Shown in pieces: positions 15,024-48,291 of a stretch of DNA of 64,000 nucleotides. How positions within the stretch are numbered: position 1 is the stretch's first letter; the number at the start of each line of letters is the position of its first letter. Origin of the DNA: Geobacteraceae bacterium (GTDB lineage Bacteria > Desulfobacterota > Desulfuromonadia > Geobacterales > DSM-12255); contig JACABD010000004.1 of assembly GCA_013377075.1 (NCBI GenBank), positions 1-64,000 on the forward strand, in the 5' to 3' direction. The translations under genes and the position numbers were made by a program. The notes beneath the pieces were generated by a model. That model was given only the letters and a program-made list of their open reading frames with translations, did no database searches and was not told the origin of the DNA.

Positions 15024-18000
15024 TTGAAGCGTCTAATTATTTTATCTCGTCTGATTCCATTACTGCTTATCTGCCCTCTGATTTTAGCAACTTACGGCAC
15101 TCTTCATGCTGCTGCACAGTGTTATGACTGTCACGGCAGCAAGAGCGGGCAAGACTATCGTCCTCTTGATGACGCCTTCAGAAACAGATCTTCAGGCGGC
15201 TTTCAAGGCAACCATCGAACCCATCTGCAGTCTTCTGCACGGGCAGCAGATTGTGCGCCCTGCCACCCCGGGAGTTCAGGCTACAACTCCTCGCACCGAA
15301 ACGGAGTCATAGAACTTTCAAACAGGATCAACTCCTCTCCTCTGGCAGCCGGCTATAGAAGCGGCATGACAGCCATCCCACAGACTACTACCCCTGCTTT
15401 AGGTAACTGCAGCAATGTCAACTGTCACTTTGAATCAGATACCCTGACATGGGGGAGCCTACCTCTGTCCAGGAATTCATGCTCAAGTTGTCACCAAACG
15501 CCGCCAACCGATGGAGCTCACGGCAAGAAGCATGGCCTTTACTATGGCACTGATCAGGCTAGCTGTACAAAATGCCATCCCGACCATCAGTCAAATCTGG
15601 ACCATGCGTTAGAGTCCGGCAAACGGCCACTCAATGTCCAGTTCAGCGGGACTAACATGCAAGGCCGCTACACAAGCGGCAGCACAGGCTATCCAAATTA
15701 TCTGCCCAGTCAGAATCCTGCGCGAAACGGAACCTGCACCGCCATCTACTGCCATAGTGACGGTCGTGGCGGCCCGCCGACCATAGCGCCGAGATGGTCA
15801 GACCCCAACAGTACAAAGTGTTTCTCCTGCCACAAAGGTGCTTCCGGCGACAGCACCCAGGCCAACTGTGTCTCAATCCAGGGGGCCTGGAGCAGTGCCC
15901 GTAACATCTGTACTCCTGACGTCACCATGTCCAGCAACGGCCACCATCGCCTGGTCGGGCCGCAATGGATCAGGAAATACCCTTGCACCTATTGCCATAA
16001 CCAGTCAGTTGCCGAAGTTTTCGATGCAAACGGAAAGATTACCGGAGATGGCGGAATCCGCTTTGTAAATTTTTCGACAAGGCATGTAAACGGTACTGTA
16101 AATGTGGCAATCGCCTCACAGTGGAACGTAGTGGGTCTGCCTCCGGCAAGCTTTAACAGCACAACAAAAGCATGCACAAACCTCTACTGCCACAGCGACG
16201 GCACGGCAATTCCTGAAGATATCAGACAGATAGGCTGGTCTGAGAAGACGGACTGCAACTCCTGTCACGGCCATCCACGCGGAACCTGCAACACAGTTTT
16301 GTGTCACGACGGCAGAACCGACAGCAATGGCAAAACCTGGGCAGTATTAACAGGCTGGCCCGCAGGGAGTGAGTGGATGGGGGCCATGCCGATGTTCCTC
16401 AATGAGGGACAGGGGACAGCTCATGCAAACTCCCATGCACGCCATATCCAGACCAATATGACGTGCGATAACTGCCATGCGAAGACCGTTGTCAATGGCA
16501 CATGTACAGTCTGTCACACTACCGGTATTCCAAGCGGTACAATGTCCGAAGTTGCCCATGTAAATCCGGAAAAACATGTTAACAAAAGGAAAGATGTCGA
16601 TTTCAAGGATGGCGGAACCTATGACGAAAACACCAAAAAGTGCAGCAGTACCGCCTGCCATATCGGTGTAGATCCGGTTTGGGGAGGATCGGTCAACACT
16701 ATCATAATCTGCATCTCATGCCATAAGACGACAACCGCAACCGGAGGGGATGTTGACAGCTACGGTTTTGCTGCCAATACGACCCGGGCAAAAATCAACC
16801 TTGATGAATGGTCATTCAGCGGCCATGGTCGCTATTCATCGGCGGCTCTAACCGGAAAATATCCGGTGTCAGGCAATCCGGCAGCAGGGTTTCCCATCGA
16901 CAACCCGTGTTGGTACTGTCATGACAACAGCGTCCTTCATAATGACGCAACAAACCCGTTCCGCCTGCGCCAGCATGACCAGTTCAGCAAGCGTTTTGAC
17001 AAGGAGTGCGTATACTGCCACATGCAGGGCTACGACAGCGAATGTCTCGGCTGCCACAACTCGGTTGAATCACTATCTCCGCAGCTTAAATCATCAATCG
17101 TGATTACAAAACATAGCGGCGTCACCTATCTCAGTGGCTGTACTGTTTCAAGCTGCCACGACAGCGACGCAAAGATGCATAAATCAGGTGTTACAAGTTT
17201 CTGGACAGCCGATCAGAAGACCGATGTAAAAAACCAGTATGTCATGATGGGGGTCTGCCTTAAATGCCATGACGATGACTCTGCCAACCAGTGTAATGGC
17301 TGCCATGATTACAGTCTTCCCAAATATCAGCTTGGTTTTGATCCTGGCACCGGCTTCAGAAAACCGAAAAAAGCCCGCGCCTCTTCCGCTCACTTCGGCA
17401 TGAAGCATTACGCCGGATTTCTTTCATCAGGCGGCTGGGAGCTGGATTCAAACGGCCATACAAAGGGAATCTGGCGCGGCGGCAAGTTCTGCTGGGACTG
17501 CCATGATCCCCATGGCGACAGCAACATCTACATGATCCACGACAAGGTCGCTACAACCACTGACGGCAAGTTCGGCATTCCGCTGACCAGGGCAACCGTC
17601 GTCTTCACCAAAAAGCAGAGCGGCTCAGATTATGCCAACTCTGATCCGTTCAAGCCGTATAACGGCATCTGCAATGTCTGCCATACTGCTGCCAGCAGGC
17701 ACTATACGGCGACCAGAGGTGACGGGCATAACTCCGGCAGAATCTGTACTGACTGCCATCAGCACCGTTTTGCTGACAGCCATGCCAATGGCAATCCGTG
17801 CAACAGCTGCCACGCCAACAGCAAGCCAGTGCCGAAACATGCGGCATTCGGCCTGCCCCAGGACTGCACCAAATGCCACAGCGGCATCATCAACAAGCGC
17901 ATGGATATCATGGGGCAGTTTAACGGCAACTCCCACCATATTCAGGGTGTAGCCGTAACAAACAAGCAGTGCTACAAATGTCACTGGGAGGCCACGGCAG

Positions 18001-19601
18001 AGGGCTTTATCGATCGCAAATATCATGAGGGATATGACTATAAAGTCTATACTTCTGTACCGAATGCAAAGGTCGACCTGGTAATCTGGCAGGCTGGCGT
18101 GCGGCCTACTTTTTACAGTTCGACTACTGCAGTGCAGTTTCTTGCTAAAAATGTTGGTACATCCGGAGAACGGGCAGAGGCGGCCAAGGTCACCAACCAC
18201 TGCCTTGGTTGTCACAGCGACCAGAACAACAACACCGATCCTTTTGGTGACTGCAAAACCCCGCGTCAGTATGCCTGGGACTTCCAGAGCGTTGCTGCAC
18301 GCTATTCCCAGATCGGCACAACCCAGTGGGGCAAGGTCAATTCAACTGCATACCCAAATGCCAACCAGAAAGACACTGTCACCAAGGCATTCTCTGCCCA
18401 CGGCAATGCTGCCAATAACCAGGGTGGCTACAGCCTGACAAGCGGCACAGACAGCAGCATCCCGAATCTGCGCGGCAGCCAGAACGTCCAGTGCTACGAC
18501 TGCCACAGCTCCCACGGCTCCAAGGTGACCGGCGTGACATCAAGCTATATGACTTTCAACGGCACCTACAACGGTGCAAACCTGAAAGAGACCCAGGCAG
18601 GCAAGGGTGGTTACGGCATGAGCTACAGAGCCTCTGCCAACACGACTTCAGGGGCAATCAACCCGTATAATGCCGGAGCCGGCCAGTGCTTCGACTGCCA
18701 TAACAGCCAGAACAGCGGCACAACACCATGGGGATACCAGTCGACATTCGGTGCAACCGCACCGGTAAGCGGCTACAACGACTCGCTCCGCTTCGGTGTC
18801 ACTGGCAGCAGTCCGAGCCAGTACGCCTACAAGCGGAACAGACCGGCTGTCGGCGGCCATATGAAAGCCGAGAGTTTCCTCAACAGGACTACCTCTGCAC
18901 AAAACAAGATAAACGGGCTCTGCACACCCTGCCATGATCCACACGGTGTCAGCCCGACACTGGGGAGCAAGCAGGCCTATGCAATTCCGCTATTGAAAGG
19001 GACCTGGATGACCTCGCCATATCGTGAAGATGCGGCAATGCCTGTCAATGGCGGCTACGTAGGCCCGCCAAATCTCGACCCTGCACCACTGGCGTTCACG
19101 GATCAGCGTTCATTCGATGGCAACAGGATTTCCCAGAGCGACAGCCAGTTTGCCGGGCTATGCCTGCGCTGTCACAACAAAAGCACTCTTACAAAAGACG
19201 CCTGCTCCAACCCTGCATTCAATAACAACAGCTCCCAATGCAAGTCCAGCGGCGCAACCTGGCGACCAAACTCCTGGAAGAGCAAGGACAGGGTTCACGA
19301 ATCGGTCAGGGACTGGAAAAGTTCAAACAATAAAATCCAGCACTCCTACACCTGCTCAAAGTGTCATGCACCCCACTCCGGCAATATGCCGCGGCTGCTG
19401 GTAACGAACTGCTTTGACTGGAAGCACCGTGGTCAGCAACAGTCGGGCGGGTCGTACCCGGCAGATGGAAACAGCAATTATTGGGATCCAGGCGGGCCGG
19501 ATGGTTCAGAAAACGGCCCGGGTAGTGGCGGGGGTCAGATGCCCGACTGCCATCCCGGAGCCTGGCCTGACAACTCATGGAACGTGGTGACGCCATGGTA
19601 A
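15024..19601 (+). CDS. Giant multihaem c-type cytochrome (33 CXnCH motifs)
   Basis: 1,525 residues from a TTG start with GGAGG seven bases upstream. A Sec signal peptide (about residues 1-30) is followed by 33 haem-type motifs by my reading: 27 CX2CH and 6 CX4CH. All six CX4CH motifs (for example CSNVNCH, CTAIYCH, CTNLYCH) lie in the N-terminal half; motifs in the second half are all CX2CH. This mixed pattern is the Geobacter CX4CH/CX2CH family. Such proteins are secreted or surface-attached and take part in electron transfer across or outside the outer membrane. Whether CX4CH sites carry haem is not certain. The last 100 residues are Gly/Ser/Asn-rich with no further CXnCH motif. A giant propeller/FN3 gene starts 44 bases after the stop, probably the same operon. 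Confidence 0.93.
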   Translation: MKRLIILSRLIPLLLICPLILATYGTLHAAAQCYDCHGSKSGQDYRPLDDAFRNRSSGGFQGNHRTHLQSSARAADCAPCHPGSSGYNSSHRNGVIELSNRINSSPLAAGYRSGMTAIPQTTTPALGNCSNVNCHFESDTLTWGSLPLSRNSCSSCHQTPPTDGAHGKKHGLYYGTDQASCTKCHPDHQSNLDHALESGKRPLNVQFSGTNMQGRYTSGSTGYPNYLPSQNPARNGTCTAIYCHSDGRGGPPTIAPRWSDPNSTKCFSCHKGASGDSTQANCVSIQGAWSSARNICTPDVTMSSNGHHRLVGPQWIRKYPCTYCHNQSVAEVFDANGKITGDGGIRFVNFSTRHVNGTVNVAIASQWNVVGLPPASFNSTTKACTNLYCHSDGTAIPEDIRQIGWSEKTDCNSCHGHPRGTCNTVLCHDGRTDSNGKTWAVLTGWPAGSEWMGAMPMFLNEGQGTAHANSHARHIQTNMTCDNCHAKTVVNGTCTVCHTTGIPSGTMSEVAHVNPEKHVNKRKDVDFKDGGTYDENTKKCSSTACHIGVDPVWGGSVNTIIICISCHKTTTATGGDVDSYGFAANTTRAKINLDEWSFSGHGRYSSAALTGKYPVSGNPAAGFPIDNPCWYCHDNSVLHNDATNPFRLRQHDQFSKRFDKECVYCHMQGYDSECLGCHNSVESLSPQLKSSIVITKHSGVTYLSGCTVSSCHDSDAKMHKSGVTSFWTADQKTDVKNQYVMMGVCLKCHDDDSANQCNGCHDYSLPKYQLGFDPGTGFRKPKKARASSAHFGMKHYAGFLSSGGWELDSNGHTKGIWRGGKFCWDCHDPHGDSNIYMIHDKVATTTDGKFGIPLTRATVVFTKKQSGSDYANSDPFKPYNGICNVCHTAASRHYTATRGDGHNSGRICTDCHQHRFADSHANGNPCNSCHANSKPVPKHAAFGLPQDCTKCHSGIINKRMDIMGQFNGNSHHIQGVAVTNKQCYKCHWEATAEGFIDRKYHEGYDYKVYTSVPNAKVDLVIWQAGVRPTFYSSTTAVQFLAKNVGTSGERAEAAKVTNHCLGCHSDQNNNTDPFGDCKTPRQYAWDFQSVAARYSQIGTTQWGKVNSTAYPNANQKDTVTKAFSAHGNAANNQGGYSLTSGTDSSIPNLRGSQNVQCYDCHSSHGSKVTGVTSSYMTFNGTYNGANLKETQAGKGGYGMSYRASANTTSGAINPYNAGAGQCFDCHNSQNSGTTPWGYQSTFGATAPVSGYNDSLRFGVTGSSPSQYAYKRNRPAVGGHMKAESFLNRTTSAQNKINGLCTPCHDPHGVSPTLGSKQAYAIPLLKGTWMTSPYREDAAMPVNGGYVGPPNLDPAPLAFTDQRSFDGNRISQSDSQFAGLCLRCHNKSTLTKDACSNPAFNNNSSQCKSSGATWRPNSWKSKDRVHESVRDWKSSNNKIQHSYTCSKCHAPHSGNMPRLLVTNCFDWKHRGQQQSGGSYPADGNSNYWDPGGPDGSENGPGSGGGQMPDCHPGAWPDNSWNVVTPW

Positions 19602-19645
19602 AAACATATGGAATATCCGAATTAATGAAAAGCAGGGGAGTTCTA

Positions 19646-22600
19646 ATGATACAGAGAACCTCTAAATTCAGAAGATTAGCTGACAGGCTACTCCTTTTTG
19701 TCATGGCGCTACTGTTTGTGGCCGGAACCGTGCAACAGACCTTTGCCGCCGGAGGCGCCATCATCTGGCAGGCTGGCGACGGCCAGAGCGGCAAACAGAT
19801 AGCCAAGTCCTCGGCAAGCGACAGCCAGGGTAGCGTAATCGTCACCGGCTATCAGAACCTTGGCAGCTATGACAGTTATATGACCACCAAATTCAAGGCA
19901 GACGGCAGCGGCGTGGCATGGCGTGCCACCTTTGCCCGGGCAAACGGTAACTGCCAGGCAACAGCCGTCGCAATTGACAGTAGCGACAACGTCATAGTCA
20001 CAGGCTATGCCTGGAACGGCGTCAACAACGACATCCAGACCATCAAATACAGCGGCAGTGACGGCACAGTCCTCTGGCAGCACACCTGGAACGGCGCTGC
20101 CAACGGCAATGACCGGGCCGCTGCAGTTGCAATCGACAATCTCAACAACATCTATGTCGGCGGCTCAACGCAAGGGACTTCCGGCGCCGATGACCTCGTC
20201 ATCATCAAATACCTCGCCACCGGCCCCTTAAACAACCTCCCTGCCTGGCAGGTCAGCTACAACGGCCCGGCAAACGGCATGGACAATCTCTATGACCTGA
20301 CCGCCGGAGCAAGCGGCATAGCCGCCACCGGCTGGTCCTATAACGGCAGCAGCTTTGACATGCTCACCATCAAATACGACCTCTCCGGCAACAAGCTCTG
20401 GGAGAGCCGCTACCAGTCAGTTGGCGGCGCAATGGGTAAAAAAGTAAAAATGGATGCCAGCGGCAACGTCATAGTCACCGGCTATGCAGCAGATGCCGTA
20501 TCAAAAAACATCTACACCGCCAAATACAAAAGCAGTGACGGCAGCAAACTCTGGGAGAGAACCTACTCAAGCTCCGATGGCAGCGACGAAGAGGCCAATG
20601 ACCTCTACGTTGACACAACCGGTGAAGTCTTTCTAACCGGCTACACCTTCCTCAACGCCGGACTGAACAAAGTCTTCTACACCGCCAGATACAGCGGCAC
20701 CGCAGGAGCTCTCCTCTGGGATGCCACCTCCAATTCCGGCGGAGATGCCGACGAAGCAGTCGCCATCACCGTTGATGGCAGCGGCGACGTCTATGTAACC
20801 GGCTACACAGTCTCCGGCGGCAACTACGACTTCCTCACCATCAAATACCAGCGTGACAGCGGCCTTGAGAGATGGTTATTCCCCTTTAACGGCGCAGCCA
20901 GCTTGAATGACCGTCCCGTCGGCATCAGCATGTCGCCAATCGGAGAAGTCCTTCTTGGTGGCTGGTCCGAAGCCGGAAACAACAATCCTGACTTTTACGC
21001 CCTCAAGCTCGACCCTGAACAGCTGCCAAGACCGACCGCCCTTGTTGCCACCACCCTTTCCAACAGCAGCATCCAGCTGACCTGGGCAGATAACTCCAGC
21101 AGTGAAGAGAGCTTCAGCGTAGAGCGCAAACTTGGCGAAAACGGAAGTTACAGCACCGTTGCCACCCTTGACCCGGGCAGCACCAGCTACAGCGACATCG
21201 GCCTCAGCATCAACAACACCTACTACTACCGGGTAAGGGCCTACAACACAGCCCAGGGGTTCTCCCACTACAGCAACGAAGCCCACGCCCTCACCGCCAC
21301 CTACAACAACATCGCCTTTGCCAGAACAGCCATCTACACCAGCCCCGACAACCTTAATGACACCCCGACCGCCCTTGCAATGGGCCCGGACGAGAACCCG
21401 GTAATGACCGGCTACAGCCAGACCGCAGCATTTGGCAACAACTACCTCACCCTGAAACTGAACCGGTCCGACCTGAGCACAATCTGGAACGCCCAGTACG
21501 ACGACCCTGACAGCGGCACTGACGAAGCTCTCTGCATGGTAGTGGACTCAAACAACAGCACCATGGTCTCCGGCCATGCGAACCTTTACTACAGCCTTGT
21601 CGGCAAGAACATCCCCTCCATTCTCACCCTGAAATACCCGTCATACGGCCCACCGGAGAGCTGGACCAAGCAGTATAACGGTCCAGGAGGGATAGATGAC
21701 CGCCCCAGAGCCGTAGCTGCCTCAATTGACTCAGCAAACAGTGTCGCAGTTGTCGGCTATGGCCTGAACAGCGCTGAAAACATCGACATCTACGTCCTCA
21801 AATACACAAAAACAGGCGCACTTGCCTGGGCTGCACCCCCCTTTGACGGTCCCGGACATGGTCATGACATCCCCAGTGGCGCCGCATTCGGCCCGGACGG
21901 CAGCATCTATGTAACCGGTTACAGCGAAACAGCAACCGCTAGCGGCAGATACAACCTCTTCACCGCAAAATACAACGGCAGCAGCGGCGCCCTCATCTGG
22001 TCAGATCTTTACACCCCCCAAGTAAACGGCGACAACCGCAGCAACGCAATCGTCGTTGATGCCGCAGGCGACGTCTACATCACCGGCCGCGCCACAAATG
22101 CATCGGGCAACAGCGACATATACACCATCAAATACAGCGGCAGCAGCAGTATCCCCCAGCGTCTCTGGGAACACTCATTTGACGGCACAGGCCACGGCGA
22201 TGACAACGGTGTCAGCATCAAGTTAGACCCCTATGACGGCGCACTAGTCGTTGCCGGCACAACCCTGACCGGCAGCGGTAACAACGACTTCGCCGCCCTG
22301 CGCTACAGTCCGGCCGGAGATCCCCTCTGGCAAAAAACAGTACTTCGCCCCAATAACGACGACACCCTCACCGGCATGGCAATAGATCCATCCGGCACCA
22401 TCTACCTCGCCGGAGACACCAGTAGCGGCATGAGCGTCGATATCCTTTCCGTCATACTTGACCCTACAGGAAACATCCTTGCCTACTCGACTTTTGATGG
22501 CAGCGGTCACAGTTTCGATCAGGCAATCGGCGTTGTTACCGACAGCAAAGGCGAAGCATTCATCGGCGGCTCAACAGTGAAGGCAGATGGCAACTCCAGC

Positions 22601-25600
22601 TATATCATCCTGAAACAGTCCAGCAGCAACTACATCATCCCGATCCCCACCCCCTTTGCCGCAACCCAGCAGGCCGACTACAGCAAGATCAGCCTTGCCT
22701 GGAGCAACAACCTGCCAGGCAGCAGCTTCCGGATCGAAAGGACCCCCGGGCCTGTCAGCTCAGGCAGCACCTGGACTCTCATCAACACAGCAGGCCCCGG
22801 AAGTACCGGCTACACAGACAACGGCCTCAACCCCGGGACAAACTACTGCTACCGGATAGAAGCGTTCAGCGGCAGCTTCTTCTCCAAACAGCTCATCAGC
22901 TGCGCCACCACAACCCTCCCCCAGCCCGTGATGTCATTAAGCCTTGTTTCGGCAACAGCAATCGACATCAGCTGGACAAATATTCCCGGCAACAGCGGCT
23001 ACAAACTTGAGCGGAGCACCGACAACATCACCTGGAGCCAGCTTGGCGCCAACCTCCCGGTCGATACAACCATCTTTCATGACAGCAGCCTTACTGCAGG
23101 CCAGGTCTACTACTACCGGGTCAGCACCCTGAGTGCATTCGGCCCCTCCCTGACAACAGTCCAGACAGCCCCCGTCCTTACAAGCGCAACAGCTGTCTCC
23201 AGTAGTGAAATAGATCTCGCCTGGCCATCTGTCAGCGGTGCAACAGCCTATCTTCTTGAGAACAGCATTGACAATGCAACCTGGAACCAGATTGCCTCAC
23301 AGCTGACAACCACCTATCAAAACCCCCTACTTCCACCGGGAGTAACCTACTACTACCGTCTCAAAGTCGTTACCAATGCAGGCACATCAATACCCAGCCT
23401 CGTCCGTTCGGCCCAGAGCTGGCCAGTGGCACCTGTTCTGAATTCGGTGACAGCCATAGCACCCAATCAGGTCAGCCTCTCCTGGGCCGGCAGCGCCGGT
23501 GCAACCGGCTACACAATCTGGGAGTCAACCTGCAGCAATAGCTGGGTCAGCTTTACCGGCTACAACAACGCCCAGTCAGTCTGGGTTCCGGTCGCTGTTT
23601 CACCCAATAACTGTGACCTTTATCCCCAGTACATAAGCTGGAGTAATCCAACTCAGGTTGGAACAGTCAGTGGGCATGATTCAACTGTATTTACCCGAAA
23701 CGGTGCACCGATCGGAGCCCGCAGCAGCTACTACGTCGTGGCAACAGCATCTTCAAGCGCTTCACCCGCCAGCAATACCCTCAAAACATGGACCCCTCCC
23801 CAGGCTACAACCTTGAGCGCAACCGTCACCGACACCTCAGTGAATGTGAGCTGGTCCACTGCGAACGTCACCACCAGTAATATCCTTGAAAGGAGCCTGA
23901 ACGGAACCAACGGCTGGACAACCATCTACACCAGCACCGGCAATGTCTATCCGACCAGTTACGGCTATAACGACACAGGGCGCTCACCTGCAACCACATA
24001 CTACTACCGGGTAACAAGCAGCGGAGTGGTTACACCCCAGGCTCTCAGCACGGTTCTGCCAGCGACCACCCTCTCAGGCGGCCCGGCAATAACGACACTT
24101 TCCCTTGCCGGTAACCAGATAACAGTAAACTGGAGCAACGTTGCCGGTAACCTTGGCTATAATGTCAAAAGATTGCACAGCTCAGAAGCCACGCCAACCT
24201 ACTGGTATGATGACGGCTATGTTTCAACCATGGTCGCCCAGGACGCAGTCTCTTTTATTGACAGCACCATTTCAGCCGGAAACGCCTACAAATATCAGGT
24301 GCAGGTGAAGTTTCCCGGCCCAGCGTTATCCGGTTGGGGGAGCGATTCAGGGCTCTGGAAGCGGATGGCGCCTGCCACTCCGACAAACGCATACACAAAC
24401 GGAATGTACCTTTCCTGGTACCAGAGCCCCGGCGCCACACTCTACACGATTCAGTACATGCAGCCGACAGGAAGCGACTGCTCCAGCGGAACCGCATGGA
24501 GTCAACTGACAACAACAACTTCGACCTCATACAATCCTGGCCTGTCAAATACAGGCTCATGGTGCTTCAAAGTTGCAGCCAGCAATGAATCAGGAGCTTC
24601 CAATTTCGGCACAGCCGCCATCTACCTGCCTCCGCCGACAACATTTACCCTCGGCACATCCACAGTCTCAACCATCCCCCTCTCCTGGAGCACTGTCCCC
24701 GGCAACAACGGCTACCAGATCGAGCGCTACCCATCCTACTATGGCTGCTGGAACCCCTATCCGATCTGGGGGACCTGCGGCCCGATCTGGAGCACGGTAA
24801 ACAACACCATAGCAGGAGCTACCAGTTATACCGATAGCGGTCTGGTCTCCAACACCGCCTACCAGTACCGGATCTCCACCAGAGTTCAAAATGGCGGCAG
24901 TAGTGGCCTGTCAGTCTCCAAACTGAGCTCTCCCACAAGCAAATCAACCCTGGCCCTTGGGAATATGACCCTGACCGGACTGACGGTGGACTCTTCATCC
25001 CAGATCACGGTTATCTGGTCCGATGTGACAGGCAACAACGGGTACAAACTCCAGCGAAGCCCTGATAACTATACCTGGACAGATGTTGTTACCACCGATC
25101 CTGGGGTTACAAGCTACAGCAACTCAGGACTGAGCAGCGGCACAAAATATTACTATCGCGGGCAGGCAAAGGACGGTGCAGGTACCTTCACCGCATTCAG
25201 CAATGTACTGAACGCCACAACACCCCTGCCGACCCCGGCCATAGCATCAGCAACCACCGCATCTGAATCCGCAATCAATCTATCCTGGCAGGTAGTTACC
25301 GGTGCAACAAATTACAAACTCTTCCGCTCCATAGGCGCAAGCGGCCCATGGACCCAGGTCACGAACCAGGCAGTTGCCTACTCAAGCAAATACTGCGGCC
25401 TCTACTCAACACCAAGCATGGATTGCAGCACACTCGTCCCGGTATTTACCAACTACGCCGATACCGGTCTGACGGAAAACACCAACTACTGCTACCAGGT
25501 CAAAGCCTGGAACTCGGTCATTGGTGACTCATCTCCAAGCAGCACCGTATGTGCTAACACCCTCTCCGTTGGCGGGCCGGTTCTAAGCACAGTCACAGCA

Positions 25601-25900
25601 TCACCGGTCACACGCTCGATTCAGCTTGGCTGGACATACAACCCTGCGACCTGCACCCCGATCCCATGCGCACCGGTACCGGACGGTTTCGAGATCTGGC
25701 GACTGGCCATGAATGGAGAGTGGGCGCTGCTGGCAACAACGGCGAATGTAACTACATTTACAGACAAGACGAATATAGAGCCGCTTAAAAACTACAGCTA
25801 CAAGGTGCGGGCGTTCAAGGGAACGGCAACTTCCAACTACAGTAATGTTCTGGGGAGTACGACGGCGTCATTCAATCCGAATGCCGGAACCTGCCCGTAA
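19646..25900 (+). CDS. Giant secreted protein: two beta-propeller arrays plus about twelve fibronectin type III domains
   Basis: 2,084 residues from the ATG at 19646, chosen because GGGGAG lies seven bases upstream and the product then starts with a normal signal peptide (QTFAAGG cut region); an in-frame ATG at 19577 overlaps the cytochrome gene. Residues about 30-455 hold eight repeats of the form VIVTGY..(D)I.TIKY (SBBP-type propeller). One FN3 domain follows, then a second set of eight such repeats (to about residue 1000), and then about eleven more FN3 domains, recognisable by I.LSW..V.G..GYKLERS and TYYYRV. No membrane anchor, PEP-CTERM or LPXTG-like sorting signal is visible. It likely acts as an extracellular scaffold or adhesin; its position after the cytochrome suggests a shared surface structure. 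Codon use strongly favours GGC and AAC. Confidence 0.88.
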   Translation: MIQRTSKFRRLADRLLLFVMALLFVAGTVQQTFAAGGAIIWQAGDGQSGKQIAKSSASDSQGSVIVTGYQNLGSYDSYMTTKFKADGSGVAWRATFARANGNCQATAVAIDSSDNVIVTGYAWNGVNNDIQTIKYSGSDGTVLWQHTWNGAANGNDRAAAVAIDNLNNIYVGGSTQGTSGADDLVIIKYLATGPLNNLPAWQVSYNGPANGMDNLYDLTAGASGIAATGWSYNGSSFDMLTIKYDLSGNKLWESRYQSVGGAMGKKVKMDASGNVIVTGYAADAVSKNIYTAKYKSSDGSKLWERTYSSSDGSDEEANDLYVDTTGEVFLTGYTFLNAGLNKVFYTARYSGTAGALLWDATSNSGGDADEAVAITVDGSGDVYVTGYTVSGGNYDFLTIKYQRDSGLERWLFPFNGAASLNDRPVGISMSPIGEVLLGGWSEAGNNNPDFYALKLDPEQLPRPTALVATTLSNSSIQLTWADNSSSEESFSVERKLGENGSYSTVATLDPGSTSYSDIGLSINNTYYYRVRAYNTAQGFSHYSNEAHALTATYNNIAFARTAIYTSPDNLNDTPTALAMGPDENPVMTGYSQTAAFGNNYLTLKLNRSDLSTIWNAQYDDPDSGTDEALCMVVDSNNSTMVSGHANLYYSLVGKNIPSILTLKYPSYGPPESWTKQYNGPGGIDDRPRAVAASIDSANSVAVVGYGLNSAENIDIYVLKYTKTGALAWAAPPFDGPGHGHDIPSGAAFGPDGSIYVTGYSETATASGRYNLFTAKYNGSSGALIWSDLYTPQVNGDNRSNAIVVDAAGDVYITGRATNASGNSDIYTIKYSGSSSIPQRLWEHSFDGTGHGDDNGVSIKLDPYDGALVVAGTTLTGSGNNDFAALRYSPAGDPLWQKTVLRPNNDDTLTGMAIDPSGTIYLAGDTSSGMSVDILSVILDPTGNILAYSTFDGSGHSFDQAIGVVTDSKGEAFIGGSTVKADGNSSYIILKQSSSNYIIPIPTPFAATQQADYSKISLAWSNNLPGSSFRIERTPGPVSSGSTWTLINTAGPGSTGYTDNGLNPGTNYCYRIEAFSGSFFSKQLISCATTTLPQPVMSLSLVSATAIDISWTNIPGNSGYKLERSTDNITWSQLGANLPVDTTIFHDSSLTAGQVYYYRVSTLSAFGPSLTTVQTAPVLTSATAVSSSEIDLAWPSVSGATAYLLENSIDNATWNQIASQLTTTYQNPLLPPGVTYYYRLKVVTNAGTSIPSLVRSAQSWPVAPVLNSVTAIAPNQVSLSWAGSAGATGYTIWESTCSNSWVSFTGYNNAQSVWVPVAVSPNNCDLYPQYISWSNPTQVGTVSGHDSTVFTRNGAPIGARSSYYVVATASSSASPASNTLKTWTPPQATTLSATVTDTSVNVSWSTANVTTSNILERSLNGTNGWTTIYTSTGNVYPTSYGYNDTGRSPATTYYYRVTSSGVVTPQALSTVLPATTLSGGPAITTLSLAGNQITVNWSNVAGNLGYNVKRLHSSEATPTYWYDDGYVSTMVAQDAVSFIDSTISAGNAYKYQVQVKFPGPALSGWGSDSGLWKRMAPATPTNAYTNGMYLSWYQSPGATLYTIQYMQPTGSDCSSGTAWSQLTTTTSTSYNPGLSNTGSWCFKVAASNESGASNFGTAAIYLPPPTTFTLGTSTVSTIPLSWSTVPGNNGYQIERYPSYYGCWNPYPIWGTCGPIWSTVNNTIAGATSYTDSGLVSNTAYQYRISTRVQNGGSSGLSVSKLSSPTSKSTLALGNMTLTGLTVDSSSQITVIWSDVTGNNGYKLQRSPDNYTWTDVVTTDPGVTSYSNSGLSSGTKYYYRGQAKDGAGTFTAFSNVLNATTPLPTPAIASATTASESAINLSWQVVTGATNYKLFRSIGASGPWTQVTNQAVAYSSKYCGLYSTPSMDCSTLVPVFTNYADTGLTENTNYCYQVKAWNSVIGDSSPSSTVCANTLSVGGPVLSTVTASPVTRSIQLGWTYNPATCTPIPCAPVPDGFEIWRLAMNGEWALLATTANVTTFTDKTNIEPLKNYSYKVRAFKGTATSNYSNVLGSTTASFNPNAGTCP

Positions 25901-42218: not shown

Positions 42219-42276
42219 ATCAGTGGAAAAACAGATCGCGTCGGGAACATTTGTGCCACTTCGGTTGTCAAATATC

Positions 42277-42885
42277 ATGAGTGAGCTGAAAACCCAAATT
42301 ACCGATGAAGATGCCAGCCTGGTTGCATCCTGGCGAAGCGGGGATCCGGCCTCTTTTGAGGCACTGGTTCGAAAACACCAGAAACGGATGCTGAATATTG
42401 CCTTTCGGATTAGCGGCAATTACGAAGATGCCTGCGAAATAACCCAGGACGCCTTTGTGGCAGCATACCGGGAGATCGGCTCATTTCGGGGCACAGCACG
42501 TTTTACCACCTGGTTGACCAGCATTGTCATTAATCTGGCCCGAAACCGCAGACAGCAGGTTCAGTCACGGCAGCAGCACGAAGCATGGTCCATGAATGAA
42601 ACCGCTTCTGACAATAGCAGCAGAACCGGTCGGGAGCTGCCATCCCCTTCTCTTTCAGCCCATGACCGGCTGGAGAGGCTCGATCTGCACGAAAAACTCC
42701 AGGATTGCATCAACGGCCTTGGGGAGGAGTTTCGCGAAACCATCGTCTTGCGCGATCTACAGGATTCTTCCTATGGGGAGATCGGCGCCATTCTCAAGGT
42801 GAAGGAAGGAACCGTCAAGTCAAGGCTGTTCCGTGCCAGGGAGATGGTCAAGGACTGCCTGAAACAGGCAGTGGGAGAGCTCTGA
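42277..42885 (+). CDS. ECF-type RNA polymerase sigma factor
   Basis: 202 residues from ATG 42277; a GTG at 42223 would add 18 residues but lies directly after the hairpin. Region 2 spans about residues 26-93 (FEALVRKHQKRMLNIAFRI, EITQDAFVAAYREIGSFRG, FTTWLTSIVINLARN) and region 4 about 145-197 (LGEEFRETIVLRDLQDSSYGEIGAILKVKEGTVKSRLFRAR). This is the RpoE-like group. It should direct transcription of an envelope-related regulon, probably including its own operon. The stop overlaps the anti-sigma ATG by one base, the classic sigma/anti-sigma coupling. Confidence 0.95.
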   Translation: MSELKTQITDEDASLVASWRSGDPASFEALVRKHQKRMLNIAFRISGNYEDACEITQDAFVAAYREIGSFRGTARFTTWLTSIVINLARNRRQQVQSRQQHEAWSMNETASDNSSRTGRELPSPSLSAHDRLERLDLHEKLQDCINGLGEEFRETIVLRDLQDSSYGEIGAILKVKEGTVKSRLFRAREMVKDCLKQAVGEL

Positions 42886-43943
42886 TGGAGCATACTGAAG
42901 TACGCCGCAACCTGTCCGCCTACATTGATGACGCCGTTGATCCGGCCACCAGAGAGACCATAAACGGGCATCTTGCAGGCTGCGCCAGCTGTAGCCGGGC
43001 ACTGCACGAGCTTGAACAGACCCTGGCCCATCTCAAAGAGCTGCCCGAGGTCGAACCGCCCCCATGGCTGACGACCAGAATCATGGCAACGGTGCGGGAA
43101 GAGGCAGGTCAGAAGCGGAGTTTCTGGCAGAAACTGCTGCTGCCACTGCATATCAAGCTCCCCCTGGAAGCGCTGGCGCTGCTCTGCATCTGCGTTACCG
43201 GATTCTATCTGGCTCGCATGAATGAATCACCGGTTGCACCGACAGAGGTTCCAGTGCAATCGCCGCAGGCACAACCGGAGCTGAAACAGCAGCCTGCCGC
43301 CATTCCGCAGACATCGCCAGAGCCTCAAGCAGCTAAAAAGGCTGTTCCACAGAAACCGGATGACAGAAAAGCAGAATATGCACCACCGCCGCCACAATCA
43401 ACGGCTGCGCCAATCCATCCCCCCCCTGCCGAGCCCCGGATCACGGCACCTCAGGCTCCTCCAGCCGCAAAAGATTGGAACCAGCCCGACTACGGAATGC
43501 AGCAACGGGACGCAGCCCGTAGGTATGTCACAGAAATGGAGGCCATGCAAAAGTCGGAAGGGCACAAAGCCGCCCGTAGTATGAAGAAGAGCCCATCCCC
43601 TGCTGCCACAATGGGTAATGACGGGACATTTCAGACCTACCGTCAGGAGAAAGCCGAAGCCTCCCGACCAGGCGCAGCAGATGGGTTCTCTGGCAAGGCT
43701 GTCAGCCTCACAGTTGCCGATCCGTTAAAAGCAGTCGAATCAATTGAAAGAGCGGTCACCGATCTTGGCGGAAGGATCATCCGCCGCAGTTACGCCGATG
43801 ATGGTCATCTTCTCGTTGTACAACTGGAGATGGGTGCCCTGCCTGAGCTGACAGGCCGTCTGGAGCGAATCGGCAGGTTGACAACCAGACCCGACCTCAG
43901 CAGCTCAGTTAATGGCAAGATCAACCTGACAATCCGCTGGTAA
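42885..43943 (+). CDS. Zinc-type transmembrane anti-sigma factor
   Basis: 352 residues, starting at the ATG that overlaps the sigma stop. The cytoplasmic N-terminus has the ZAS zinc motif H-x3-C-x2-C (His29, Cys33, Cys36 in HLAGCASC), followed by one membrane helix at about 92-110 (LPLEALALLCICVTGFYLA). The periplasmic part is Pro/Gln/Ala-rich for 150 residues and ends in an 80-residue folded domain (SLTVADPLKAVESIERAVTD to NLTIRW) resembling the C-terminal domain of other Geobacter anti-sigma proteins. It should hold the sigma factor at the membrane until an envelope or redox signal releases it. No obvious regulated-proteolysis protease gene is adjacent. Confidence 0.9.
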   Translation: MEHTEVRRNLSAYIDDAVDPATRETINGHLAGCASCSRALHELEQTLAHLKELPEVEPPPWLTTRIMATVREEAGQKRSFWQKLLLPLHIKLPLEALALLCICVTGFYLARMNESPVAPTEVPVQSPQAQPELKQQPAAIPQTSPEPQAAKKAVPQKPDDRKAEYAPPPPQSTAAPIHPPPAEPRITAPQAPPAAKDWNQPDYGMQQRDAARRYVTEMEAMQKSEGHKAARSMKKSPSPAATMGNDGTFQTYRQEKAEASRPGAADGFSGKAVSLTVADPLKAVESIERAVTDLGGRIIRRSYADDGHLLVVQLEMGALPELTGRLERIGRLTTRPDLSSSVNGKINLTIRW

Positions 43944-44031
43944 AATATTTTCAGATTTTCGGGAACTTTTTCCTCACCCCTCTTGTCTAACCGGTTAAAG
44001 CAGATAATTTTCGGCAAAACAGGGGGAAGAG

Positions 44032-44820
44032 ATGAAAACTTTTTGGGTAACAGTGGCACTGCTGGCAATGACCGCTTCAGCATGGGGGAGCTACAGAAAC
44101 GATGCCGTCGAGGTGCAGATAAAAACCGATCAAGGGAGAGAGCTCCCCTTCTATCCGGCAAAAGGGGATGGCAGGCAGCAGACCAGACTTTATGCGGAAG
44201 CTGTCAAGGGGGATAACTACCGGATCTTCATCCACAACAAGACTGGGCGGCGCGTCGGCGTGGTAGTTGCCGTGGATGGTCGCAACATCATCTCCGGCCA
44301 AAAATCCTGGCTGAAAAGTAACGAACAGATGTACATTCTCGAACCGTACGGATCAGGCGAGTTCACCGGCTGGCGCAGCGGCGACGACAAGGTCAACCGT
44401 TTCTACTTTACAACAGCTGACGACTCCTATGCAGCGGCCTTCAACGATGAATCGGCCCTTGGGGTGATCGCAGTTGCCGCCTTTCCTGAGGTACGACGCG
44501 TTGATCCACCGGTTGAGTTCTACCGGGAGCAGTCGTGGCGTGGGGCAGGTGCAGCGGCACCTTCCATGGCAAAACAGGCCAAAAAAGCCGAAAGCATGGC
44601 TGACAGCGCCGGCACCGGCTATGGCCACGAAGAGTATTCGCCGGTCACCAGGGTTGAATTCGAGGCAGAGAAGACGGCAATGCAGAAGGTCCTCATCAAG
44701 TACGAATGGCGCGAAACCCTCTGCCAAAACGGCATAATCTCATGTAGAACCCCGAAACATCCGGGCAACCGACTCTGGGACAATGGCGGCTATGCACCGC
44801 CACCACCGGGGAGAGGTTGA
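44032..44820 (+). CDS. Exported protein of unknown function (sigma operon)
   Basis: 262 residues with a Sec signal peptide (cut near SAWG-SY, about residue 19). GGGGGAAGAG precedes the ATG. The mature N-terminal 120 residues read as a beta-rich domain (DNYRIFIHNKTGRRVGVVVAVDGRNIISG; MYILEPYGSGEFTGWR), the centre has an Ala/Lys-rich region, and the C-terminus contains the pair CQNG..SCRT and ends in Pro/Gly. The GRNIISG and W..GEF..GWR features resemble periplasmic proteins of uncertain role found near sigma factors. No family named. Third gene of the likely sigma operon. Confidence 0.7.
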   Translation: MKTFWVTVALLAMTASAWGSYRNDAVEVQIKTDQGRELPFYPAKGDGRQQTRLYAEAVKGDNYRIFIHNKTGRRVGVVVAVDGRNIISGQKSWLKSNEQMYILEPYGSGEFTGWRSGDDKVNRFYFTTADDSYAAAFNDESALGVIAVAAFPEVRRVDPPVEFYREQSWRGAGAAAPSMAKQAKKAESMADSAGTGYGHEEYSPVTRVEFEAEKTAMQKVLIKYEWRETLCQNGIISCRTPKHPGNRLWDNGGYAPPPPGRG

Positions 44821-44840
44821 ACGGTTTCAAAGGAACAGAC

Positions 44841-45809
44841 ATGTCATCTCACTTCCCAAAACCTTATGTAGCAAGTTTCCTTATGGCAAGTAACGCCTAC
44901 GAAGCGGCGATTGACGACCGGATCCATGCTGCACGGGAAGACCGGACTGATTCCGCTATCCTGCCGGGGCCGCCGAACAGGGCATATTTCCTTGACAGTT
45001 TCTTCACTCAGTTGCGCCATCTTCCCTTTGCCATGGAGATAACCACCCCGGAGCCGGAATTTGAGGAGATGATCATTGGTTACGAAGATGGCAGACCCGA
45101 CCCGACCGATCCGGCAAAAAAATGGCGGGCGTTTTCGCTCTCCCTGCGGATGGATCTGGGCGGCACCCAGGACGCCACCCTGCTGCTGCGTGAATCACCG
45201 TGCGAATCGTTGACCATGGCCAGTCTCGTCTTTGCCGCTGACACCGATGAGAGTGCTGCCCATGCTGAACCATCGGCAAAACGTTATCTTTTCAGGGAGT
45301 TTCTCTGCACGCTGATAAACAGCTATCCTGTGATCTGCGGCACCATTGGACTCGACATTGTAGCAATTGAAGCAGGTCTTCCTCACGACGAATTCAGACT
45401 GGATAACGGCAGGTGGCTACAGCAGTTTATTGAGAAATTACGCCTGTCAGGACGTGAAGATGACCTTTTTTGCGTTTATATCAACGGCTCGCCGTGGCAA
45501 TTCGACAGACCGTTTATTTACGACAACATCGAGCCACACGACAGCCATCTTGACACCTGGGCAGGCAGACGCTTCTTTGACCTGCACAAGATAAAGGAGA
45601 TCCGCATCCATGTTGAAAAGGGAGAACTTGCATATGCCCGGATGTATGAATCCGGTTATCCAAAGGACGACCGGGATGATGCCCTCATGTCTCTGGCAAA
45701 GGCGATCAGCATGGCAAATGAGCTGGGGCTTGAACAGGAAGCGGCCAGATTAAAAGCGCAGTCTGAGCATATCAATGCCGTATTTAACTCCCAGTTCCGC
45801 TGGAGATAA
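44841..45809 (+). CDS. Hypothetical protein, probably cytoplasmic (sigma operon)
   Basis: 322 residues from ATG 44841, with AAAGGAAC upstream; a TTG at 44817 would overlap the previous stop. No signal peptide or membrane helix. The sequence is acidic, with RAYFLDSFFTQLRHLPFAMEI near the start, a long central alpha/beta region and a C-terminal helical end (ALMSLAKAISMANELGLEQEAARLKAQ). It is not recognised. It is the one member of the operon that seems to remain in the cytoplasm, so it may process or regulate the exported proteins encoded around it. Confidence 0.65.
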   Translation: MSSHFPKPYVASFLMASNAYEAAIDDRIHAAREDRTDSAILPGPPNRAYFLDSFFTQLRHLPFAMEITTPEPEFEEMIIGYEDGRPDPTDPAKKWRAFSLSLRMDLGGTQDATLLLRESPCESLTMASLVFAADTDESAAHAEPSAKRYLFREFLCTLINSYPVICGTIGLDIVAIEAGLPHDEFRLDNGRWLQQFIEKLRLSGREDDLFCVYINGSPWQFDRPFIYDNIEPHDSHLDTWAGRRFFDLHKIKEIRIHVEKGELAYARMYESGYPKDDRDDALMSLAKAISMANELGLEQEAARLKAQSEHINAVFNSQFRWR

Positions 45810-45833
45810 ATCAAGTCGGCCAAGAGGATCACA

Positions 45834-46622
45834 ATGAAACAGTTTCGCAGACAGACGCTCTGGACGGGCATTATCCTCACCCTACTCTGCTGCACCCAGG
45901 CAGTTGCTCTCGACAAGCACGAGGTCGTACGAAAGGCAACCGCTGCCTATTACAGTCTTGAACGGCAAGGGCTTACATCCTTTAACTGCACGGTAGTGCC
46001 CGACTGGCAGGAGTTTTTCGAGCAGCAGCTGGAGGGTTATGACGATCCGGCCACCCGCAGCCGAATCGGGAAGATCCGATTTTCCGTCTCTCTCGATCAA
46101 TCCGGCATGCTTGACCTGACGCCTTACCGTGAAGGGGGCGGTACAATCAGCGGCAGCAGCGCCTACATGGCCAACAAGCTGGGTGAGCTTTTGTCCGGCT
46201 TTTTCCAGATGGTCCAGATGAATGTCATCAAGACACCATTTTCGATTCTGGAAAATGATTTCACCCTGACAGATAAAAAGGAAGAGTATTTGATTACCAT
46301 GGATGATTCCGAAGCCACGTCTGAAATAACGATGACCAGGGACTATCTGATCACGGAAATACTGATCCGCATCAAAAATCCGCAAACTGCTGAAACGATT
46401 TTCTGGCCCAAGTTCGACAGCACCGGCCAGGGGCTGCTCCTGTCGAGGTTGACCACAATACGTAATGACGGCCAGTTCATGTCAACCTGGGATCTCAAAT
46501 ACAGCAAAACTGGCGGGCTGCAACTTCCGGCCAGCGTTGTCATAAAAAACACCGAAAAGGGCAAAACTGTCCGGCTTAAAGTTGATTTCGACAACTGCAA
46601 GGCTGCTCAGAAACAGAAATAA
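45834..46622 (+). CDS. Exported protein of unknown function (sigma operon)
   Basis: 262 residues. Signal peptide with probable cut after QAVA, about residue 25. AGAGGATCACA lies upstream of the ATG. The mature protein mixes helices at the start (HEVVRKATAAYYSLERQG) with a long series of beta strands (KEEYLITMDDSEATSEITMTRD, WDLKYSKTGGLQLP), loosely like a LolA/LppX lipid-carrier fold, but no motif proves this. One cysteine pair (Cys52 region and Cys256). Follows the cytoplasmic protein by 24 bases. Confidence 0.65.
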   Translation: MKQFRRQTLWTGIILTLLCCTQAVALDKHEVVRKATAAYYSLERQGLTSFNCTVVPDWQEFFEQQLEGYDDPATRSRIGKIRFSVSLDQSGMLDLTPYREGGGTISGSSAYMANKLGELLSGFFQMVQMNVIKTPFSILENDFTLTDKKEEYLITMDDSEATSEITMTRDYLITEILIRIKNPQTAETIFWPKFDSTGQGLLLSRLTTIRNDGQFMSTWDLKYSKTGGLQLPASVVIKNTEKGKTVRLKVDFDNCKAAQKQK

Positions 46623-46634
46623 GGGGGTCCCACC

Positions 46635-47204
46635 ATGTTTAAAAGACTGCAAAACGCCATCATCTTTTCAGTTGCTGTTCTGGTTTTTATCTTCCCGGCA
46701 GCTCTGTCAGCCAAGGAACTGCCTCTCATGGCAGATCTATCAAAGCTGCGGCTGAAAATTATCGAGACAACTACCGTGGAAAAGCTACCAGGCTACATGC
46801 AATCCATGGCAGCCACCCCTGACGAAGAGAGTGAGAGCAGCTCCTATTACAGGGCTCCTGAAGGCAAGAAGATCGTTGTTGTCACGCTCAAGGGGAGCAT
46901 CCCCTCCCCCTGTCGACTCACCTATGATTCAGCAGAATTCGTCGCCCTCTATGACCAGTCTGTCACGAGCAGCACCGGGGTAAAGAAAATCAGAACCGTA
47001 TCGAGCCATGCTGCCGGTGTCACTACTACTGACAGCTGGCAGATTTCCACTGAAGGGGTCAGCACCAATTCCATAGAGGTTTACGCTGCTTCTCCCCTTA
47101 TTCTTCGGATCGCCTTTTATCTGCCCAAAGAAGTGGAAAGCTTTGATCTGCGCTATCCGACTGCCATTGCAAAAAAGGCCACTATCTCGAACAGAGGGAA
47201 ATGA
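46635..47204 (+). CDS. Exported protein of unknown function (sigma operon)
   Basis: 189 residues. Signal peptide (cut near LSA-KE, about residue 26) and AAGGGGGTCCCACC before the ATG. The mature part is beta-rich: KIVVVTLKGSIPSPCRLTYD, WQISTEGVSTNSIEVYAA, LRIAFYLPKEVESFDLRYP, suggesting a compact beta-sandwich. A single cysteine. Not recognised. It starts 12 bases after the previous stop and overlaps the next gene by four bases, so it is part of the same transcript. Confidence 0.65.
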   Translation: MFKRLQNAIIFSVAVLVFIFPAALSAKELPLMADLSKLRLKIIETTTVEKLPGYMQSMAATPDEESESSSYYRAPEGKKIVVVTLKGSIPSPCRLTYDSAEFVALYDQSVTSSTGVKKIRTVSSHAAGVTTTDSWQISTEGVSTNSIEVYAASPLILRIAFYLPKEVESFDLRYPTAIAKKATISNRGK

Positions 47205-47911
47205 TCATGTTCAATCGCCAAGTAACAGTGTCAACCGGTCTGACGGCTCTCTTTTTAGTGGCGACAGTCGGCAGCGCCAGCTGTTCCGGCCTGACGTCCA
47301 TGGTCGAGCAGATGCGCAGCGGCAAGGTAAAACTTGCCGAAGTGAACGCCGAGAAAGAGAACCTTACTGCCCAGAACGAGCGGGATTTGAAGGAGTACAC
47401 CGCTTACAGCGAGAGCTTCGGCCAGCTTGCCGCAAAGAAACAATCTATGGTGGATAATTTCAAGAAAGACATAGCCGCAAGGATCGGCTCGGCAAATGCC
47501 ATGGTTGAAGCATGGAACGCCAGATGTGACGCAAATCGTGTCGGTGAACTGCCGGAACCGGCCTTCAAAAGCTGTCAGGCAGAAAAGGCACGTCTGGAGC
47601 CGACAGTAACCGCTATTGTCAGTGCCGTCGACCGAGACACCGAATCTTTTGAAAAAAATCAGCTTGCCCCCATGGAAGACATTTTTAAAAGACAAAAAAC
47701 CGCCATGGACGGGCTTGATACGCGGATAAAGGGAAGATTTGAAAAATGGCTGAAGGTGAAAGAATTGAGTGACGAAATGACCGCCAGACTTGCAAACCTC
47801 CGCTCGGCGCTAGTCGAGGCTTGCAGTACGGCAACTACCATTGAAAGCATCAAACACTGCAATGCCATCGGCTGGGACGGGGCACGAATGGACCTGCCGC
47901 CACTTCAGTAA
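47201..47911 (+). CDS. Exported coiled-coil protein of unknown function (sigma operon)
   Basis: 236 residues. The ATG at 47201 overlaps the previous stop (ATGA); ATG 47207 is an alternative two codons on. The signal peptide is followed by a mostly helical mature protein rich in Lys, Glu and Ala (MRSGKVKLAEVNAEKENLTAQ; RFEKWLKVKELSDEMTARL), predicted as long antiparallel coiled coils, with five or six cysteines spaced along it that may form disulfides across helices. Not recognised. Resembles periplasmic adaptor or chaperone-like helical proteins only in general shape. Confidence 0.65.
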   Translation: MIMFNRQVTVSTGLTALFLVATVGSASCSGLTSMVEQMRSGKVKLAEVNAEKENLTAQNERDLKEYTAYSESFGQLAAKKQSMVDNFKKDIAARIGSANAMVEAWNARCDANRVGELPEPAFKSCQAEKARLEPTVTAIVSAVDRDTESFEKNQLAPMEDIFKRQKTAMDGLDTRIKGRFEKWLKVKELSDEMTARLANLRSALVEACSTATTIESIKHCNAIGWDGARMDLPPLQ

Positions 47912-47952
47912 GTTATGAAAAAGCAGCCATTCAATTAAAACAGGAGATAATC

Positions 47953-48291
47953 ATGGGAAATCTGTCAAGCCAGGTCAAAACCGAGCTCAGGCTGCTGCCT
48001 TACATGCTGGCTAAACTGCTTGGCGGGATCATGGCTATCTTCGGCTTTGCTGCTGCGATCGTCACCTTGACGAGGAAGGACGGCAATTCCTTGGCAGATA
48101 TCCTTCTGTCAGGCATGGTCTGCATCCTTGGCATCATCATCTTTTTATTATCTTCAAGGATGCAGAAACGACGTCAACCACCGACCCAGATAGACATAGA
48201 TATGCAAACAAGTCCATGTCTGCTTCCATGGATAATTCTGTTAATGCTGGCAGCCGCGTTTCTCTTATGTACCTATTTCATAACAAGGTAG
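47953..48291 (+). CDS. Small inner-membrane protein (sigma operon)
   Basis: 112 residues with three hydrophobic segments (about 19-38, 48-66 and 91-109). AGGAGATAATC precedes the ATG. No conserved motif recognised. Last gene of the sigma operon; a 157-base gap then precedes ppdK, which has its own ribosome binding site and probably its own promoter. Confidence 0.65.
   Translation: MGNLSSQVKTELRLLPYMLAKLLGGIMAIFGFAAAIVTLTRKDGNSLADILLSGMVCILGIIIFLLSSRMQKRRQPPTQIDIDMQTSPCLLPWIILLMLAAAFLLCTYFITR

Follow-up and report, generated by a model that had tools for sequence, protein, structure and literature searches.

A cluster of eight genes on the forward strand of the window, by which we mean the whole 64,000-nucleotide stretch of Geobacteraceae DNA that was analyzed, probably contains a dedicated, autoregulated ECF envelope-response module. 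Its core consists of an ECF sigma factor (sig, 202 aa, 42277..42885, +), a class I membrane anti-sigma factor (asf, 42885..43943, +), and an exported protein of 262 aa (A, 44032..44820, +) that is the constant partner of sig and asf. Five further genes, B to F, follow on the same strand, and the ORF positions agree with the list of eight genes given in an earlier note on this DNA. That note had read the cluster as a self-contained envelope system with its own ECF regulator, a reading that synteny, co-occurrence, and promoter sequences uphold for sig, asf, and A but that does not extend to the eight genes as a conserved unit. The earlier interpretation is thus partly supported, and the observation behind it is confirmed.

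The main evidence that sig controls its own gene and A is a promoter motif. An RpoE-like element, GGGAACTTTTT-N-TGTCTAA, lies upstream of both genes, where it forms the predicted ECF promoter of sig-asf at 42244..42272 (+; GGAACATTTGTGCCACTTCGGTTGTCAAA), an exact match to the motif conserved in relatives, and the predicted ECF promoter of A at 43962..43990 (+; GGAACTTTTTCCTCACCCCTCTTGTCTAA), the second exact site in the genome. The element is 29 nt long and comprises GGGAAC(T/A)TTT(T), 13 free bases, and TGTC(T/A)(A)A. It fits the -35 (GGAACTT) and -10 (TCAAA) boxes of E. coli sigma-E (PMC2893595). ECFs are usually autoregulated and usually have an AAC -35 (PMC8103513). An ECF-type promoter with an AAC -35 and a GTC -10 had been anticipated upstream of 42277, and the site at 42244-42272 answers to that description. 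The single simple transcript envisaged in the earlier note was not borne out, as A has its own predicted copy of the same promoter. The note had counted an internal promoter against its own reading; the one found before A does split the cluster in two, but it is of the same sigma type and therefore strengthens the link between A and the regulator. We conclude that the cluster probably forms two transcription units under one dedicated, autoregulated sigma factor.

Only exact sites of the motif were used as evidence. The 3.7-Mb genome to which the window belongs contains just two exact copies, both at the sig/A locus (42244 and 43962), where we estimate from the fixed letters that about 0.4 would be expected by chance. 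Eight other genomes that carry the module have 17 exact sites among them, of which 13 are located at sig or A; in eight genomes that lack the module, the total is one. A stricter pattern yielded 30 sites over 28 genomes and none when reversed, and nearly all of these sites are 5' of A or sig or of a small number of other proteins, most of them exported. Dozens of relatives have the motif 5' of sig, A, or both, among them three genomes (G220, G243, and G244) in which sig and A occupy separate contigs and each has its own copy. When two mismatches were allowed, no enrichment was observed inside the 64-kb window. Sites with one mismatch in the window's genome were considered as regulon members and rejected, as their count did not exceed that of a reversed control and most lie inside ORFs. 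An exact site common to G028 and G036 was likewise set aside; in both genomes it falls at the beginning of one conserved gene, and it was taken as shared coding sequence.

The position of the first element also bears on translation of sig. In the window, as in most other lineages, the motif ends 4 nt ahead of the sig ATG; in a few lineages the distance is 3 or 6 nt. This places the ATG where transcription is expected to start, and we therefore predict that the sig mRNA is leaderless. A purine-rich, Shine-Dalgarno-like sequence is found 5' of most genes in the cluster, sig excepted. The A start is mostly 25-53 nt past the motif, with a Shine-Dalgarno sequence in most cases. At three Syntrophia loci, the leaderless position holds no start codon.

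The motif, or a sig-asf pair, was also observed beside other genes. At L179 and L180 (G205 and G206), the motif is directly 5' of radical-SAM/SPASM peptide maturases, for which the nearest models (CefB, PapB, and geopeptide) all score under cut-off. Elsewhere it is 5' of VWA-domain lipoproteins (L177, L178, and L183), a MuiA (DUF4139) protein (L165), and an exported serpin (L170). A Thiothrix locus (L102) encodes a VWA-like protein near A, and at L025 (G005:C82) a locus of the sig-asf type is followed by radical-SAM and two unknown genes in place of A.

The genes behind A are closely packed. B (330 aa, 44817..45809, +), which has a TTG start with an alternative ATG at 44841, overlaps A by 4 nt, or follows it by approximately 20 nt if the alternative start is used. 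C (262 aa, 45834..46622, +) begins 24 nt after B, D (189 aa, 46635..47204, +) 12 nt after C, E (236 aa with five cysteines, 47201..47911, +) overlaps D by 4 nt, and F (112 aa, 47953..48291, +) lies 41 nt beyond E and 157 nt ahead of ppdK. Upstream, sig and asf join in a TGATG overlap, and approximately 90 nt separate asf from A. Hydropathy supports the earlier description of four proteins with signals, one without, and one three-helix membrane protein: hydrophobic, signal-like N-termini are present in A, C, D, and E and absent from B, and F is a small protein with three hydrophobic segments. E, with its five cysteines, would be the cysteine-bearing coiled coil of the earlier note. Codon use favors the annotated frame over the other two for A to E; F, for which it gives no such clear preference, is a less certain gene and the weakest member of the cluster. 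None of A to F belongs to a Pfam or NCBIfam family above cut-off, in keeping with the note's failure to recognize any of the six, and none has a PADLOC or PHROGs match that would mark it as anti-phage defence or phage cargo. A search for Rfam elements found none. At 15024-25900, the window also contains two consecutive, very long ORFs of 1525 and 2107 aa, the second of which has an unusually high GC content at the second codon position.

B to F look like lineage-specific accessory cargo, in place of which other lineages attach different exported proteins. C, D, and E each have no homologue in 277 genomes of the class. B has two full-length homologues there (48% and 33%), and the wider phylum added one match, which is short and partial. 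Both full-length homologues adjoin other exported proteins, one a TPR protein and the other a long, apparently exported protein, with no sigma factor. Neither B nor C was found on plasmids, and the structure model of B is of low confidence (pLDDT 56). The TPR protein next to B at L147 is similar to a TPR protein of the L044 and L208 cargo, where the latter comes after A and a third copy of the promoter; we treat this likeness as a hint only, as TPR similarity can be general. The neighborhood conservation that the note had asked about thus holds for sig, asf, and A, but not for the full set of eight genes. Because B to F have almost no relatives, spacing is what places them in the regulon, and we infer their membership from that tight spacing, the shared strand, and the absence of a further promoter of the same kind. 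Alternatively, B to F could be independent genes that follow A by chance and lie outside the regulon, as might be supposed from the lack of relatives of C, D, and E in the 277 class genomes and from the occurrence of B elsewhere without sig or asf. This alternative seems rather unlikely to us, given that the genes overlap or are separated by no more than 41 nt, that codon use in B to E is host-like, that no promoter-like or terminator-like site rises above chance, and that exported cargo is found directly downstream of A in other lineages too, with L026, L044, and L046 sharing a common cargo of their own at that position.

In contrast to the full cluster, sig, asf, and A recur as neighbors in Geobacterales, Syntrophia, and Holophagaceae, in the order sig-asf-A in Geobacterales and Holophagaceae loci and as A-sig-asf or divergently in Syntrophia loci. 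Cultured bacteria that have the core include Trichlorobacter thiogenes, Geomobilimonas luticola, and Geobacter sp. AOG1. Among 38 related genomes, a close asf (E<1e-30) was found in nine, namely the window's own genome, G005, G009, G014, G017, G023, G024, G035, and G036, and A is present in the same nine and, beyond these, in G027 only. In G027 (locus L103), A is in pieces with a stop codon and the adjoining asf is a fragment, although the promoter is retained; this is joint decay of the module. A search with a single A sequence returned no match, whereas a seven-sequence alignment returned 63 loci. An A gene was called at 59 loci. At 28 of these, sig or asf lies within three genes of A, and at the remainder A is alone or close to a contig end. 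A is better conserved than asf, with identities to the window protein of mostly 50-63% compared to 23-42%. The distribution of A covers Geobacterales, Syntrophia, Holophagaceae, one member of Methylomirabilota, and gammaproteobacteria, with distant relatives in Burkholderia at 30%. The gammaproteobacterial copies have neither a neighboring sig or asf nor the motif. Because many genomes encode A without an adjacent sig or asf, A can work outside the sig regulon.

A represents a conserved, exported family that is in none of the family libraries searched (Pfam, NCBIfam, PHROGs, and PADLOC). An AlphaFold2 model of A (pLDDT 77) features an Ig-like beta-sandwich, an Ala/Pro-rich stretch modelled at low confidence, and a C-terminal segment that is conserved; three of the proteins had been described as beta-rich, and the model bears this out for A. 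Foldseek returned no match to this model at E<=0.001, and the best matches, to PapD-like/MSP Ig-like domains, are weak, with TM below 0.5, so we used the structure for the general fold only. From sequence comparisons, A would be the exported, constant output of the sig/asf module. A different role is suggested by the E. coli RpoE-RseA-RseB system, which shares with this locus the promoter motif, autoregulation, and the order of sigma factor, membrane anti-sigma factor, and exported protein. There, rseB lies behind rpoE-rseA, which is the position that A occupies here, and A might correspondingly be a periplasmic co-regulator that binds the periplasmic domain of asf and tunes the release of sig, rather than an effector. 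The constancy of A as a partner of sig-asf, its co-occurrence with asf, and a modelled beta-sandwich of a kind often used in protein binding all fit such a role. We nevertheless judge it unlikely, because A has a separate, predicted inducible promoter, because many genomes, including those of gammaproteobacteria, encode A without sig or asf as neighbors, and because A has no RseB-type Pfam or NCBIfam match. Asf correspondingly has no RseA-type match in Pfam or NCBIfam, and the regulon here is tiny, which further separates the locus from RpoE-RseA-RseB.

The assignment of asf as an anti-sigma factor is based on its domains. From the N-terminus, the protein comprises an H-x3-C-x2-C domain, one TM segment, a Pro-rich linker, and a DUF4349-like C-terminal domain. 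The zf-HC2 domain scores above cut-off and its H-x3-C-x2-C motif is N-terminal, as in class I anti-sigma factors; the motif residues H29, C33, and C36 are unchanged across 26 homologues, which corroborates the H-x3-C-x2-C membrane anti-sigma factor recognized earlier. DUF2275 also scores above cut-off (53.5 bits against 24.6) and is matched by 25 of the 26 homologues. The C-terminal DUF4349 match is weak in asf itself (13.8 bits against a cut-off of 27.7), and 18 of the 26 homologues match at E<=0.1, the best at 5.4e-7. In addition, an asf profile matches the RsiW structure 5wuq at 7e-13. Like SigW-RsiW of Bacillus subtilis, the locus pairs an ECF sigma factor with a one-TM zf-HC2 anti-sigma factor that by analogy is a likely target of proteolysis. 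It differs from that system in its motif, which is RpoE-like (GGAACTT...TGTC) and not of the SigW type, and in its regulon of few genes, the SigW regulon being large. The invariant H-x3-C-x2-C, together with weak matches to the RsrA and ChrR models, could point to asf as a thiol-oxidation switch, with the zinc finger as sensor, instead of an envelope switch. That possibility is improbable, since asf is membrane-bound with a conserved domain past the membrane, the RsrA and ChrR scores are far below cut-off, and RsiW, like other anti-sigma factors that are not redox switches, has the same motif.

Sig contains sigma70 regions 2 and 4 (Sigma70_r2, 1.4e-14; Sigma70_r4_2, 6.5e-13) and lacks region 3, as is characteristic of ECF (group 4) sigma factors. 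It scores 94.6 bits with TIGR02937 (cut-off 42.9), and it has the co-encoded anti-sigma factor and, from sequence, the autoregulated AAC/GTC-type promoter of an ECF. That the locus regulates outer-membrane biogenesis through a broad regulon like that of E. coli sigma-E is highly improbable despite the RpoE-like motif and sigma factor, given two exact sites in the genome, one-mismatch sites no commoner than the reversed pattern, and a score with the RpoE equivalog TIGR02939 of 121.6 bits against a cut-off of 236.15.

DUF2275 anti-sigma factors include fused forms, which have been mentioned in connection with group ECF36 (PMC8999054). The asf protein shares DUF2275 with these factors and the window's genome also encodes a fused protein, but sig and asf are two separate proteins. 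The fused protein is a single ORF (L036:6998-8527, G000:C68) that combines an ECF sigma factor and a zf-HC2 anti-sigma factor with a TM segment and a DUF4349-like end. Such an ORF is also found at L033, L035, and L037, and hence in all four searched genomes of the genus, and it adjoins a 4Fe-4S ferredoxin-type oxidoreductase subunit at L036 and L033. The remaining three species of the genus carry the fused ORF but lack sig-asf-A.

We propose the following sequence of events for a dedicated envelope-response module. In the resting state, asf would hold sig at the inner membrane through its N-terminal, RsiW-like domain, as expected from its family. A periplasmic disturbance may then be perceived through the C-terminal domain of asf that weakly matches DUF4349, and asf would be lost, probably by regulated proteolysis as for RsiW and RseA. 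Freed sig would initiate transcription at the two GGGAAC-N-TGTC promoters, which are known as sequences. The promoter before sig-asf would provide positive feedback, probably through a leaderless mRNA, and the promoter before A would lead to A being made and exported as the constant output. Transcription from the A promoter would extend through B to F, whose mostly exported products are specific to the lineage, as the spacing of these genes suggests. What the module produces most likely serves to protect or remodel the cell envelope. More tentatively, we suggest that the unnamed, widespread A family may be dedicated to a one-purpose sigma/anti-sigma switch, as its output or as its periplasmic partner, with lineage-swapped exported cargo behind it and a leaderless sigma message.

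Taken together, these results turn an anonymous cluster into a testable regulatory circuit, in which both predicted promoters match the motif exactly, the inhibitor is named, and a single secreted protein is conserved. The motif is specific enough for the regulon to be read straight from genomes, and it ties in further poorly known proteins, including VWA lipoproteins, MuiA, a serpin, TPR proteins, and radical-SAM peptide maturases.
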